Positions 25,589 through 31,571 of a stretch of DNA of 31,571 nt are shown here, piece after piece; the first letter of the stretch is position 1; each line of letters opens with the position of its first letter. The notes beneath the pieces were generated by a model. The model was not told the origin of the DNA. It worked only from the letters and a program-made list of their open reading frames with translations, and did not search any database. This DNA comes from a virus: positions 1 through 31,571 of IMG/VR virus record IMGVR_UViG_3300042922_000054; one strand, written 5' to 3'. The translations under genes were made by a program, and so were the position numbers.

Positions 25589-26560
25589 TTAGAGCATCAT
25601 CATGCTGGATGCTTGCTCTATGACTTTGAGGCTGATCCGGTCGTTGCCAGTCTCAGAAAGGATTCTAAACACGTTCTGCAAAGTCCGATCAAGGAGTCGG
25701 AAGCAGCCGGACTGCATATCGCAAGCGCGAGTCTTGAGTTCTGCAAGTGCATCCTGATCAATGTCATAGCCGGAGAGGTAACTATCAACTTCTGCCGAAG
25801 TCAGTCCGCGAAGCGAGGCATAAAAGTCAACCCGATTAGCCATTCGTCCGAGATAGCTCTTGATCTGCGCTTCGAGCTTTGGTTCTCCGGCGATTACGAT
25901 ACCAACATCGGACTGATCGAAGATTGCCCGGAGTATCTCCATTTTCTTCTGTGTAAACTTACTGACAAGCTTGTCGGCCTCGTCAATGACAATGAGATAT
26001 CCCTTGTTGGTGTTGCAAAAATCACGAATTCCGTTGACTCTACGCCAGATACTTCCATAGCCGGAGGGGATACCGAGAGACCTTTCGATCGCTTCCACAA
26101 GATCGCGGCAGCCCATTGTGTCGTCGCACTCGATATAAGCGACGCGGGGGAGCTTGGCGTATTCTTTGAGTGTGTGGGTCTTTCCATAACCGGAGCGACC
26201 GACCACGATCCCAAGGCCTATGTACTCCTGGCAGCTCTGGCAGACGCCGAGTATTGCCTTTGCATCCCGTGAATCGTAGAAGCGGGGGCGGCTCTTTGTT
26301 GGTGCCTTCGGAGCAGGAGCGAGGGCAATCACTTCGCCCTGTCTCGAAAGGTAATCTGCAAGCAGTTTCTCAATGCCGCTTGGATCGCTATCATATTTTC
26401 CGCTGAGATACCGGGATACACTTGTGCGTGAATATCCGATTTCGCGGGCGAGTTCTGCAATGCTCTTTCCAGTGTTTCTGAGATGAGCGTTGATTTTTTC
26501 AACGAGGTCTTTCGTCAGTGTATAGGTGTTAGCGTTTCTTTCTGCTGCTGTGACTTCCAT
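25589..26560 (-). CDS. MuB-like transposition AAA+ ATPase
   Basis: A 323-aa target-DNA chooser and transposase activator. An N-terminal helix-turn-helix (33-55: IAELAREIGYSRTSVSRYLSG) is followed by the ATPase with Walker A GRSGYGKT (121-128), Walker B LIVIDEAD (189-196) and sensor 1 VIAGEP (222-227). MuB coats DNA and gives target immunity. I choose ATG 26560, 10 bp after the transposase stop, because AGGAGG lies just upstream. The first 20 nt of this frame (26558-26541) are perfectly complementary to the candidate small RNA at 31251-31268. Confidence 0.94.
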   Translation of the reverse strand: MEVTAAERNANTYTLTKDLVEKINAHLRNTGKSIAELAREIGYSRTSVSRYLSGKYDSDPSGIEKLLADYLSRQGEVIALAPAPKAPTKSRPRFYDSRDAKAILGVCQSCQEYIGLGIVVGRSGYGKTHTLKEYAKLPRVAYIECDDTMGCRDLVEAIERSLGIPSGYGSIWRRVNGIRDFCNTNKGYLIVIDEADKLVSKFTQKKMEILRAIFDQSDVGIVIAGEPKLEAQIKSYLGRMANRVDFYASLRGLTSAEVDSYLSGYDIDQDALAELKTRACDMQSGCFRLLDRTLQNVFRILSETGNDRISLKVIEQASSMMML

Positions 26561-26570
26561 AATAATCCTC

Positions 26571-28649
26571 CTATTCATTCATGGCTCTCAGGCGAGAGAG
26601 CGCATCATCTGCTTTTTTGCCGAGAAACTCGTCCCCAGCTCCATTTTTCTTTTTTGATTGCTTGCCCGCTGCTGTTGCCCGGAACTCCTTATCATTTGGC
26701 AGTGCAACAACTTTCGAGCTTCTTTTGGCTTTGATGGTAAGATCGATCTTCCCGATCGCGTCGGAGGGGCGACCTTCTTCCTCGAATCGCGCTTTATATG
26801 GGCGGGTCATGCTTTCCAAAATTTCGCGCATTTCCTTTTCCTGTCGCTTTTGGTTGCGTAAGTGCTTTTCAAGTGCGACCTGCGAACAGTGGGGGCCAAA
26901 CTGCAAGAGCTCGGCGGAAACGGCTTCGCATATCCTCCGGCCTGTTTCGTCATAAACGTAGAGCTTTGTCACATCGTCGATATCCCACTTGATACCGACC
27001 TTCTTGCCGATATAGTGGCACAGCTCGTAGTCTGTGTAGAGGGTTCCGAACTTCTGGATACCCTGATTACGGACGAGGGCGGTGTCAGCCTTCATGAGCA
27101 GCATCGCCGCATACTCGCGGGGTGGAGCGGCTTTCTCGTAACGAGGGCCGTTCTCAAACATATCAATCGGCGTGATCCATTTTTCCCCGGCGTCTTTAAG
27201 GCCGCGATGTTCACGAGTGTGGTACTTCTCATTCTTCCACTTCGTCCAGAGCTCAAAGAACTCGCCCATCGTGAGCAGTTCGCCACGCTCAAGCATTTTG
27301 TCGATGTCTTTCTGTCTCTTGGCGTAGGTCTTGGAGCCTGTGAGCGTGCCCGTATAGCTTTCGAACCAGCGAGAGAACTTGTCGCATACCGTTTTGAAGA
27401 GTCTCTCGATCGGCTTATCCCATGGTTGATAGGGGAGCGATCTCCCGACTTCCTGGATTCCGATGCTCTGGTAAAAGCCTATCGTCTCAGAGTCAAACTG
27501 AAAATCAATGTTACGCTGTGTTCGGCTTTGCCCAGTCAAGGTCTTCGCGGTGTAGTCCTTGCCGTTGTCGATATGGAGTATCTTCGGTACGCCGCCTGGT
27601 TCATTTTCGCTGTAGATCATTTTAACCAAACTCTCTTTGAGGGTCTGGTTGTTAGCATTGATACAAGCCACGTCTCCGAGGATCGTCCGGCTTTTCATGT
27701 CAAGCCAGGCGGCAAGGTGCGGGCGAACTGCCTTGATCTTTCCATTCGGCAAGGTGACTTGCACCCAGAAATCGAAGGTGTGCTCGTCTCCGATGACGTA
27801 CTCCATAACTTCAAGGGTAGTGGCGTCACGTTTCGCCTTGAGCATTTTCTTATTCTTCCAGTCTCGTGAGCCGTTGGCAGCGAGATAACGGGCGCTTTCG
27901 GCTCCGGGTTGATCCATGAGATGTTTTATGTACCTGGCGACCGTCTTGATAGAGGGGTATCCCTCCCAGCTTCGGACCTCAGCGATTTCCTCAAACTTTT
28001 CATAGAGCATTTCGATTGTTCCGAGGTTTGCGGCAAAGTGCTTATCGAACCAGATATTTTCGATCACTGCTTTCTGTTCGTTGGTAAGGCTTGGAAAGCT
28101 TCCGACTTCCTTCGGCTTCCGGCAGAGTGAGAGAGCTCGAAAATACTCCCGGTTCTTTCCATCTCCCTTTTCCAGACGAAGCGCCCAGGCATTAGCTTCA
28201 AGAACGCTTGTGACGTATCTGTAAAGGGTTGGTGTGCTCACTGCAAGGCTTAATGCAAAGCGGTCAGCAAAGGCGGTGCGGTCTGGGCCTGAGTAGTCGA
28301 TATATTCCTGCACACGCTTTGCGAGTTCAACCGCTTCATAGTATTGTTTCTTGTGCGTCTCGATGAAGTGATTCAGGTCAATCTCCATATACCAAGGTAT
28401 CGACGACACTGTTTTCTGTTCGATGATGACATCCCTCCCGTCTATTTTCTGAGCGGCCTTGTGCGCCTTCTTGGCCTTTGCAGACAGAGAGGCGACGGAG
28501 ACCATGATATGTTCTTTCCCTCCACAATCGCGGGGTTGTGATTTAGTTTTGAAAGCCATGGGGCTGCGTTTGATTCGCTTTTGCATAGTATCGTAGGTTA
28601 TCCCTTCAAACGCTGCCGCCTCCTCAAGTGTTACGTATAGCTCCGGCAC
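26571..28649 (-). CDS. MuA-like DDE transposase
   Basis: A 692-aa transposase (MuA is 663). N-terminal DNA-binding region: LEEAAAFEGITYDTMQKRI (8-26), then a second helical end-binding domain (about 100-250). The catalytic core has D288 (GDEHTF), D361 (HIDNGKDY) and E415 (KPIERLFK). Spacings of 73 and 54 compare with 67 and 56 in MuA. The C-terminus is basic and probably contacts the MuB-like partner and ClpX. Start GTG 28649 with AAGGGAGG upstream. It should act on the ends at 71 and 31543. Confidence 0.96.
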   Translation of the reverse strand: MPELYVTLEEAAAFEGITYDTMQKRIKRSPMAFKTKSQPRDCGGKEHIMVSVASLSAKAKKAHKAAQKIDGRDVIIEQKTVSSIPWYMEIDLNHFIETHKKQYYEAVELAKRVQEYIDYSGPDRTAFADRFALSLAVSTPTLYRYVTSVLEANAWALRLEKGDGKNREYFRALSLCRKPKEVGSFPSLTNEQKAVIENIWFDKHFAANLGTIEMLYEKFEEIAEVRSWEGYPSIKTVARYIKHLMDQPGAESARYLAANGSRDWKNKKMLKAKRDATTLEVMEYVIGDEHTFDFWVQVTLPNGKIKAVRPHLAAWLDMKSRTILGDVACINANNQTLKESLVKMIYSENEPGGVPKILHIDNGKDYTAKTLTGQSRTQRNIDFQFDSETIGFYQSIGIQEVGRSLPYQPWDKPIERLFKTVCDKFSRWFESYTGTLTGSKTYAKRQKDIDKMLERGELLTMGEFFELWTKWKNEKYHTREHRGLKDAGEKWITPIDMFENGPRYEKAAPPREYAAMLLMKADTALVRNQGIQKFGTLYTDYELCHYIGKKVGIKWDIDDVTKLYVYDETGRRICEAVSAELLQFGPHCSQVALEKHLRNQKRQEKEMREILESMTRPYKARFEEEGRPSDAIGKIDLTIKAKRSSKVVALPNDKEFRATAAGKQSKKKNGAGDEFLGKKADDALSRLRAMNE

Positions 28650-30115: not shown

Positions 30116-30280
30116 TTATACGAGCTTTACGGGGATGACCTTTACGCGGTCAGTTTTCTTATGTAGGGCAATGAGTTCTCCGTCTGGCTTCTGGCGGATG
30201 ATTAGCCAGTTCTCCGGGGCTAGGCCTGCTTGTCCGAGCCTGATCTTTTGCTTAAGGGTCGGTTTCTTGCCATGCTTCAC
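30116..30280 (-). CDS. DUF6906-like small early protein
   Basis: A 54-aa protein starting at GTG 30280 after AAAAAGGAGGCG. MKHGKKPTLKQKIRL followed by GLAPENWLIIRQ and a short beta end fits the DUF6906 family, small basic proteins widespread in Bacillota phages. It is the first gene from the early promoter, with a leader of about 70 nt. Function of the family unknown. Confidence 0.8.
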   Translation of the reverse strand: MKHGKKPTLKQKIRLGQAGLAPENWLIIRQKPDGELIALHKKTDRVKVIPVKLV

Positions 30281-30387: not shown

Positions 30388-30410
30388 CGGTTTTCCGGGT
30401 GAATTGCCCG
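30365..30410. promoter_or_regulatory. Repressor operators O1 and O2
   Basis: O1 is CCCGGATTTACGGG (30365-30378), with CCCG and CGGG arms 6 bp apart, inside the spacer of the early promoter. O2 is CGGGTGAATTGCCCG (30396-30410), with the arms in the reverse order. Together they place GC-rich half sites in an AT-rich region between divergent genes. Binding by the HTH repressor is inferred. Confidence 0.72.
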
Positions 30411-30433
30411 TATTTTTAAGGAGGAGGATTTTT

Positions 30434-30883
30434 TTGTTTGTCGATATTTTAAAAGAACTAAGAAACAAGAAAGGCATATCTCAAGGGCGTTTAGCAAAGG
30501 AGGTTGGTGTTTCTGCGGGCAATGTGAGTGATTGGGAGACAGGGAAGACTAAGCCTGGTTATAACGCTCTCGCCGAGCTTGCCCGTTTTTTCGGGGTGTC
30601 GGCTGACTATCTGCTTGGGATTTCGGTCGGAAATACGGGTGATATAGCTCGATCGACATTACAATGTGACGGTGTCCCTCTCTCAGAATCAGAAGCTGAT
30701 TTAATAGCTATGTTGCGTTTAATTGATGAGGGGGATATGCAGACAGTCTTTGAATTGGTAAAGCTAAAATATGAGTTGAAGACAGGGGGAAAGGTCTCAT
30801 CTTATTCAATGTATCCCGACGTGATAGAGAGGCGAAAGAACAACACCGAAAGCGATGATAAATCTTCTCATGGAATTGCTTAA
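30434..30883 (+). CDS. Phage repressor, XRE/cI-type
   Basis: A 149-aa lysogeny repressor. Residues 1-60 are an XRE helix-turn-helix (ISQGRLAKEVGVSAGNVSDWE; GYNALAELARFFGVSADYLLG). The C-terminal part (LSESEADLIAMLRLIDEGD, then FELVKLKYE) is a short dimerisation region. There is no S24 peptidase domain, so SOS self-cleavage is unlikely. The start is TTG 30434, which has AAGGAGGAGGA six bases upstream; the in-frame TTG at 30404 lies before that site, inside O2. In Mu, c has the same outermost position. Confidence 0.9.
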   Translation: MFVDILKELRNKKGISQGRLAKEVGVSAGNVSDWETGKTKPGYNALAELARFFGVSADYLLGISVGNTGDIARSTLQCDGVPLSESEADLIAMLRLIDEGDMQTVFELVKLKYELKTGGKVSSYSMYPDVIERRKNNTESDDKSSHGIA

Positions 30884-30922: not shown

Positions 30923-31030
30923 TGTCCGATTGCTTACATACATTTTTCACGGCTTAATATTGCCTAAAACCCGCATGAATTGGTCAATCGGACAAAACGG
31001 ACTGCTTTTTTCAAAAATGTCCGATTGCTT
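30922..31030. repeat. Three TGTCCGATTG elements, candidate internal transposase sites
   Basis: TTGTCCGATTGCTT occurs at 30922, TGTCCGATTGCTT at 31018-31030, and the inverse CAATCGGACAA at 30985-30995. A degenerate copy lies near 30998. The core TTGTCCGA also appears, read outward, in the second site of the opposite phage end (98-105). They are therefore probably bound by the transposase, as L2/L3-like sites or as a transposition enhancer, although they lie 510-620 bp from the end. Confidence 0.65.
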
Positions 31031-31189
31031 TTTTATATTTTTCCATCGTTTGATTTGCTGGTGCGCGTATTTTCTAACGGGGCGCGTAACGGCTTGTTTT
31101 GCTGTGATCTATTTAAAACACTTGCTTTTATGCTTTTTATGACATAAAAAATTGCACGCTGTAACGCCACGTTCGCACGGTTACGCTAC
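31031..31189. other. Non-coding stretch, no gene seen
   Basis: No credible reading frame with a ribosome site. Short GCGCGTA/TAACGG repeats at 31060-31095 and a weak hairpin (GTAAC/GTTAC, about 31161-31184) are the only structure noted. It leads into the small-RNA promoter. Confidence 0.5.
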
Positions 31190-31218
31190 TCGACAAATGC
31201 GGCTGTTTTTGGTATACT
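31190..31218 (+). promoter_or_regulatory. Strong promoter of the candidate small RNA
   Basis: TCGACA (31190-31195), exactly 17 bp, TATACT (31213-31218), with TGG directly before the -10 (extended -10). Both hexamers match consensus at 5 of 6. There is no good reading frame with a ribosome site behind it, so its product is probably an RNA. Start expected near 31225. Confidence 0.78.
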
Positions 31219-31224
31219 CAATTT

Positions 31225-31350
31225 AAGGGTCGTGAGACCGTCTTCATTGGTCTGCTGCTGTGACTTCCGAGACGTTTCTCTCGACTCTTATGTTTTATAC
31301 ATCGTTGATGTCATGCGGTTTCGCGGGTCTCGCGTTGATTAGCTGCATTG
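31225..31350 (+). ncRNA. Candidate antisense small RNA against the MuB-like mRNA
   Basis: The predicted RNA begins with hairpin GGUC-GUGA-GACC, closed by a GNRA tetraloop (31228-31239). Next comes UCUGCUGCUGUGACUUCC (31251-31268), perfectly complementary over 18 nt to the MuB-like mRNA from the G of its AUG into codon 7. Hairpins follow: CGAGA/UCUCG (31268-31283) and ACAUC/GAUGU (31299-31311). CGUGAGACC (31231-31239) can also pair with GGUCUCGCG (31326-31334), closing the whole element. No clear 3' terminator is seen, so the end is approximate. The match is direct; regulation is inferred. Confidence 0.55.
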
Positions 31351-31371
31351 CTTGACTTCTATCTTTTCTAG

Positions 31372-31406
31372 CAAAATAAAAAGACGCCGATCAATTCGAC
31401 GCCTCT
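31372..31406 (-). terminator. Leftward terminator inside the phage end
   Basis: Read leftward, GAGGCGTCGA-ATTGA-TCGGCGTCTT forms a stem of about 8-10 bp with two or three G-U pairs, followed by TTTTTATTTT. On the rightward strand the G-U pairs become A/C mismatches, so it is one-directional. It would stop host transcription entering the phage from the right and protect the switch region. Confidence 0.6.
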
Positions 31407-31506
31407 ATCTCAAAATATTTAATAATCAAATCATTTTATCCCACTTATAAATCGTTCAATCCCGCATAAACAATGGGTTTTCTCATTTTTTCCCGGGCCG
31501 TCCCGC

Positions 31507-31543
31507 CGTATCCCGTAATTCTCAATTTTCTTGTCTCCGTACA
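31507..31543. repeat. Phage terminus, repressor end (attL-like)
   Basis: The reverse complement begins TGTACGGAGACAAG, with the GACAA core at the same offset (8 nt) as at the other end. TTGAGAA and CGG also line up, 24 of 37 positions in all. Further in, GAGAAAA followed by CCAT recurs at both ends with an offset of about 18 bp. The phage would end with ...TACA at 31543. Confidence 0.75.
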
Positions 31544-31571
31544 CTTTCCATTACAACTCACTCCTTTTTAC
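31544..31571. other. Flanking DNA outside the repressor end
   Basis: These 28 bases lie beyond the terminal CA. They show no relation to the left flank and no gene. Probably host DNA. Confidence 0.5.

Follow-up and report, generated by a model that had tools for sequence, protein, structure and literature searches.

Replicative transposition of the Mu type is controlled by a repressor, by Ner and by proteolysis. The plasmid copy-number RNAs RNAI and CopA are cis-encoded, complementary to their targets along the whole hairpin, and follow a copy-dependent inhibitor logic. Phages, too, make RNAs that act on phage mRNA for lysogeny or timing, the CI RNA of P4 being one. Others are sar of P22, OOP of lambda and c4 of P1, which hold lysogeny or set timing (PMC12197685). 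In the RNA-OUT/RNA-IN system of IS10 (Tn10), a short stable hairpin RNA pairs with the start of the element's own transposition mRNA and stops ribosome binding (PMC5006887).

The window analyzed here, the whole 31,571-nucleotide stretch of IMG/VR virus record IMGVR_UViG_3300042922_000054, spans a Mu-like phage end to end. A sequence-only reading had proposed that it encodes an RNA brake on MuB, and relatives support this proposal: the stems of the RNA covary, and its loop follows the MuB start. We consider it very likely that the phage encodes a trans-acting antisense RNA of ~70 nt which, once transcribed, would pair with the MuB start, block MuB translation and damp transposition. The features on which this account draws are as follows.

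25589-26560, minus strand: MuB-like transposition ATPase, the target gene, with N-terminal HTH and AAA_22 (Pfam)
26541-26558, minus strand: target, G of the MuB AUG to codon 7 (exact match; best site among 12,482 windows of the phage)
26571-28649, minus strand: MuA-like transposase, same operon, upstream of MuB (Pfam Mu-transpos_C, DDE_2)
30404-30883, plus strand: HTH_3 repressor-like gene near the left end, on the same strand as the sRNA and upstream of it (Pfam)
31162-31179, plus strand: conserved DNA element TAACGCCACGTTCGCACG, TAACGCC-CGTTNGCACG, just upstream of the sRNA promoter (in most relatives, including distant ones)
31190-31218, plus strand: putative sRNA promoter TCGACA-17-TATACT, extended -10 with TGG before TATACT (sequence; TGnTATAAT/TATACT in nearly all relatives)
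31225-31292, plus strand: predicted small antisense RNA gene, start probably near 31225, hairpin 31225-31289 (covariance model match, fold, stem covariation)
31225-31232, plus strand: 5' arm of the outer stem, pairing with 31282-31289 (fold; covariation)
31239-31244, plus strand: 5' arm of the middle stem, pairing with 31269-31274 (fold; covariation)
31249-31265, plus strand: apical stem-loop, GGUC-9 nt-GACU, presenting the antisense sequence (fold; stem replaced in distant relatives)
31251-31268, plus strand: antisense sequence, 18 nt (exact match to the MuB start; pairing in relatives)
31520-31543, minus strand: left phage terminus 5'-TGTACGGAGACAAG..., read inward from 31543 (aligns with relatives and the FP_Mushu terminus)

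Setting and fold of the RNA gene

With the left terminus at 31543, the sRNA gene starts ~320 bp inside the phage; a reading of 31060-31571 as host flank was rejected, as relatives and the Mushu terminus show phage sequence up to 31543. The likely termini, read inward, are 71 (TGTAGCGCGACAAAA...) and 31543 (TGTACGGAGACAAG...). The 5-bp flanks, 66-70 and 31544-31548, do not match each other as a duplication would, so this record may represent virion DNA or a mixture of insertions. Faecalibacterium phage Mushu replicates by transposition and carries variable host DNA at its ends (PMC5883640).

The near-consensus promoter noted at the outset stands: TCGACA (31190-31195), 17 nt and TATACT (31213-31218), with the TG of an extended -10, give 10/12 matches, and an extended -10 promoter, as judged by sequence, precedes every homologous RNA. 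Encoding in trans was likewise borne out, the sRNA locus lying ~4.7 kb from the MuB start behind its own promoter; by sequence, a promoter of its own, separate from the target gene, marks the RNA as a trans-encoded base-pairing sRNA, as do a structure maintained by selection and a conserved complementarity that changes along with the target mRNA. A U run sits directly behind the outer stem in relatives L186, L187, L178 and L028. The window hairpin has a weak U tail, so the 3' end of its RNA is unsure.

Several other elements surround the gene. TAACGCC-CGTTNGCACG (31162-31179) is retained by most relatives, including ones with a diverged RNA, and is probably a regulator or transposase site. Between the repressor gene and the sRNA, TGTCCGATTG occurs three times, twice direct and once inverted (30923-30935, 30985-30997, 31018-31030); these repeats are probably a phage-specific operator set, since at the corresponding positions L003 carries another repeat, TGTCACTTTG. 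On the minus strand at 31380-31406, between the left end and the sRNA, a conserved inward-facing terminator-like hairpin may shield the phage from outside transcription, and the early region holds a small DUF6906 protein (30119-30280; Pfam PF21847). A leader peptide was considered and rejected: L003 could encode MGREAVLLGLLL, but the ATG is absent in many relatives, the window included.

The whole window RNA folds as one 65-nt hairpin (-28 kcal/mol, z -4.5). The apical 9-nt loop closed by GGUC/GACU that had been suggested proved real in this fold, set atop two further stems. Across the RNAs folded the architecture is an outer stem, an internal loop, a middle stem, a second internal loop, and an apical stem with a small loop. 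Since distant RNAs were misplaced by MAFFT, an alignment based on the covariance model was used, in which 97.1% of stem cells are paired and 10/15 stem pairs show double-sided changes. Double-changed stem cells number 29; shuffling gives 8.0 +- 2.3 and never reaches that count (0/500), and sliding the partner gives no more than 7. Being fitted to the structure, this alignment lends stem covariation some advantage, but the difference is wide. Outside the model, the apical stem is swapped wholesale between groups and still forms (GGUC/GACU, CCUC/GAGG, CCCG/CGGG, CCUUG/CAAGG). Taken as comparative sequence evidence, these patterns indicate that the RNA gene, its promoter and its structure are under selection.

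By regular-expression scan and then covariance model, the ~70-nt hairpin was found in 19 distinct related prophages or contigs—Clostridia viral contigs and prophages, including those of Ruminiclostridium papyrosolvens, R. sufflavum and Lutispora thermophila—as well as in the active phage Mushu. The window RNA scores 75.8 bits (E 1.5e-17) as one of the model's own 8 sequences, and the FP_Mushu RNA 77.1 bits. Relatives were gathered by MuA searches. Two align with the window's left end; in one of these, ~70% identical over 390 bp, a block of strong conservation coincides exactly with the proposed RNA. The RNA lies ~270-395 bp inside the phage terminus wherever that is visible, and on the strand opposite MuA in every locus where both are known. 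Whole-genome searches gave one RNA place per genome, the few second rows being the other strand of the same hairpin. The RNA was present in 3/394 genomes of one order and 3/291 of one class (G004, G005 and G008, all with a close MuA). The exact 26-nt DNA pattern of the window had no match in viral contigs, while a looser 17-nt pattern hit 80 stretches, of which only two further loci were the RNA. Judged from these sequences, the RNA appears to be carried by Mu-like phages of gut and soil Clostridia, just inside the left end. In the Mushu record the sRNA strand carries no annotation; the hypothetical CDS HOS66_gp01 on the opposite strand (L240:43-363) is absent from the sister record BK063464 and is probably spurious.

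The loop and the MuB start

The match that drew attention to the locus was found as described: 31251-31268 is perfectly complementary to MuB mRNA from 26558, the G of AUG, to 26541 in codon 7. TCTGCTGCTGTGACTTCC has exactly two copies in the window, at 31251-31268 and 26541-26558, and shuffling predicts 0.02 matches with up to 3 mismatches. An original estimate of about one in a hundred for such an 18-nt match has to be raised to a few per cent, as 2/60 second-order Markov sequences held a direct repeat at least as long. Taken alone, the match is weak to modest evidence; the evidence from relatives is not weak. The MuB start codon used is the ATG at 26560-26558, with a Shine-Dalgarno sequence, GGAGG (26571-26567), in front that the MuA stop codon touches. 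A longer MuB frame from 26578 was rejected because it begins ahead of that Shine-Dalgarno sequence.

Covariation of the RNA with the MuB start had been named as a check, and is seen: the loop changes where the MuB start changes. In the first set of relatives the best RNA:MuB duplex begins at the G of AUG in all 16 phages with both parts, and a phage that keeps promoter region and MuB start while losing complementarity was sought there and found in 0/16. For example, L027 has GGAAGUCGUAGCAGG against CCUGCUACGACUUCC, maintaining 15 pairs via three compensatory double changes, and L052, with a differing MuB start, has GGAAGCAUUAGCAGCA against UGCUGCUGAGGCUUCC. In more distant phages the loops are quite different, yet each fits its own MuB start: GCUAC(A) meets GGAAGC(U/A)GUAGC in L186, L178, L183, L187 and L028, UAACUG meets CAGUUA in L220, and RNA UGCUACUUCC meets MuB GGAAGUAGCA in L209.

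With row and column effects removed, 0/50000 shuffled RNA:MuB pairings matched the cognate fit, both for 27 pairs and for 15 representatives, in permutations that treat phages as independent and ignore shared ancestry; the result holds with the constant GGAAG:CUUCC part cut away. Three members (L209, L187 and L220) were first picked by criteria that included MuB-like loops. A search by the upstream DNA element alone recovered L187 and L220, not L209, and also gave L196, L198 and L224, which have a hairpin or part of one with only weak complementarity. In a same-register subset, the intermolecular helix shows double changes at 4/15 pairs, against 1.1 +- 0.8 when shuffled and none when slid. Since the RNA is encoded in trans, its match with the target had to co-evolve, whereas in cis a match is automatic, and these sequence comparisons indicate that RNA loop and MuB start co-evolve.

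A scan for other targets across the window phage likewise favoured MuB, whose start is the best of 12,482 windows; among the 14,422 of the whole Mushu genome it is again the best. Over both strands of the 16 loci it takes first place in 10 of them, while L021 (second), L017 (tenth) and four Ruminiclostridium/Lutispora members (69-258) rank it lower. The pairing of that group is bipartite, and other sites of the locus stand above MuB: many outscore it by plain duplex energy, with no alternative target common to the top sites. A second phage target was rejected, no better site being present in most core phages. Synonymous re-coding of the MuB start equals the fit in 0.2-21% of draws for core phages, and fits as often or more in 3/4 of the Ruminiclostridium/Lutispora pairs in that test. 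Protein-level constraint thus explains part of the target-side conservation but cannot explain the RNA side. L064 has the phage end and promoter with a hairpin that is not significant (z -1.8) and no loop match, its MuB start being changed too.

Two oddities deserve separate record. In L224 the same element is followed, on the minus strand and upstream of MuA, by a very long, short-looped hairpin, GAGAGTAAACACT...AGTGTTTACTCTC, perhaps a remote member that pairs in another way. The Lutispora thermophila prophage is probably decaying, because its MuA (L030:7001-9076) has an internal TGA; its RNA:MuB fit is weak as well.

Mode of action and competing accounts

A likely course of events begins with transcription of the sRNA from its own promoter, ~320 bp inside the left end and in the direction of the repressor gene, an arrangement by which it could be made in the lysogen. 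The apical loop, together with the 3' strand of its stem, would pair with MuB mRNA from the third base of AUG into codons 5-7, and this pairing should stop the 30S subunit from initiating MuB translation. sRNAs that pair over a start codon and codons 2-7 block 30S binding. When the entire window RNA is co-folded with the MuB leader, the 18-bp helix forms and the net energy is -21 kcal/mol; alone, the mRNA (-11 kcal/mol over 85 nt) has its start region only half open. The duplex may also make the MuA-MuB mRNA a target of RNase III. A low level of MuB would dampen replicative transposition, both in the lysogen and as copies accumulate, and the sRNA would form a second, post-transcriptional layer beneath the repressor. 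More tentatively, and with the balance somewhat against it, the RNA of a resident prophage might silence the MuB of incoming relatives and of new copies, giving Firmicutes transposable phages a second, RNA-based system of immunity and copy control. As the RNAs fit their own MuB better than that of other groups, changes in loop and MuB start would define RNA immunity groups.

Granted a real RNA that pairs with the MuB start, its main output could be a different one: cleavage of the MuA-MuB transcript, activation of MuB, or a sponge titrated by MuB mRNA. MuA and MuB do share an operon in which the stop codon of MuA touches the Shine-Dalgarno sequence of MuB, the mRNA by itself has a start region only half open, and long perfect duplexes are cut by RNase III. 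We nevertheless find such an output unlikely, since pairing always falls over the start codon and codons 2-7, the classic place for an initiation block, and since the mRNA start is not locked in strong structure that pairing could relieve by activation.

Accounts that dispense with an RNA fare worse. The locus might be a DNA element of the left end, made up of binding sites for transposase or a regulator or of a hairpin bound by protein, which resembles an RNA gene; the MuB copy of the motif would then be a second DNA site. Its position within 270-395 bp of the phage end, a region of transposase sites, and the conserved element just upstream would suit this idea, but a DNA-binding site would keep its sequence, whereas the loop is totally different between groups yet fits its own MuB start; together with the compensatory stem covariation and a conserved promoter in the right place and direction, this makes a DNA element very improbable. 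We give least credence to chance or recent duplication, an 18-nt repeat without function. Such a repeat is not very rare in a window of this kind (2/60), but the block is conserved though left ends are ~70% identical, recurs in FP_Mushu and covaries with its target; the comparative data contradict chance.

Relation to described RNA regulators

We found no description of an RNA brake on phage transposition, or of a trans-encoded antisense RNA on MuB, in Rfam or the open-access papers searched. Rfam gave no match above the curated gathering threshold, nor at lax thresholds; searched by term, a 2025 review on sRNAs of phages mentions neither phage Mu nor transposition (PMC12197685); and searches of the open-access literature yielded no sRNA in Mu-like phages. 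Escherichia phage Mu likewise has a left-end repressor and a MuA-MuB operon, and holds nothing comparable in its left 900 nt, where complementarity with the B start reaches 6 nt at most, against a mean of 7.2 in shuffles. If the account is true, antisense RNA on MuB is a new control layer for Mu-type replicative transposition. The RNA has been retained across deep divergence among phages that are common in the human gut, Mushuvirus mushu among them. It offers a rare trans-encoded antisense pair whose RNA and target can be traced as they co-evolve, and one open to direct test in a known lysogen.

The locus combines traits of several described systems. Like sar, OOP, c4 and the P4 CI RNA, it pits a phage-made RNA against a phage mRNA. 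To our knowledge, the targets of those RNAs are an antirepressor, cII or early read-through, and never a transposition protein. With RNAI and CopA the sRNA shares a long hairpin with a complementary loop and would share a copy-dependent inhibitor logic, although in those cis-encoded RNAs the whole hairpin is complementary, and here only the apical part. As with RNA-OUT, a mobile element's short hairpin RNA faces the start region of its own transposition mRNA; unlike RNA-OUT, which is cis-encoded, overlaps its target and acts on the transposase, the phage sRNA comes from a separate locus ~4.7 kb away, and its target is the MuB ATPase.
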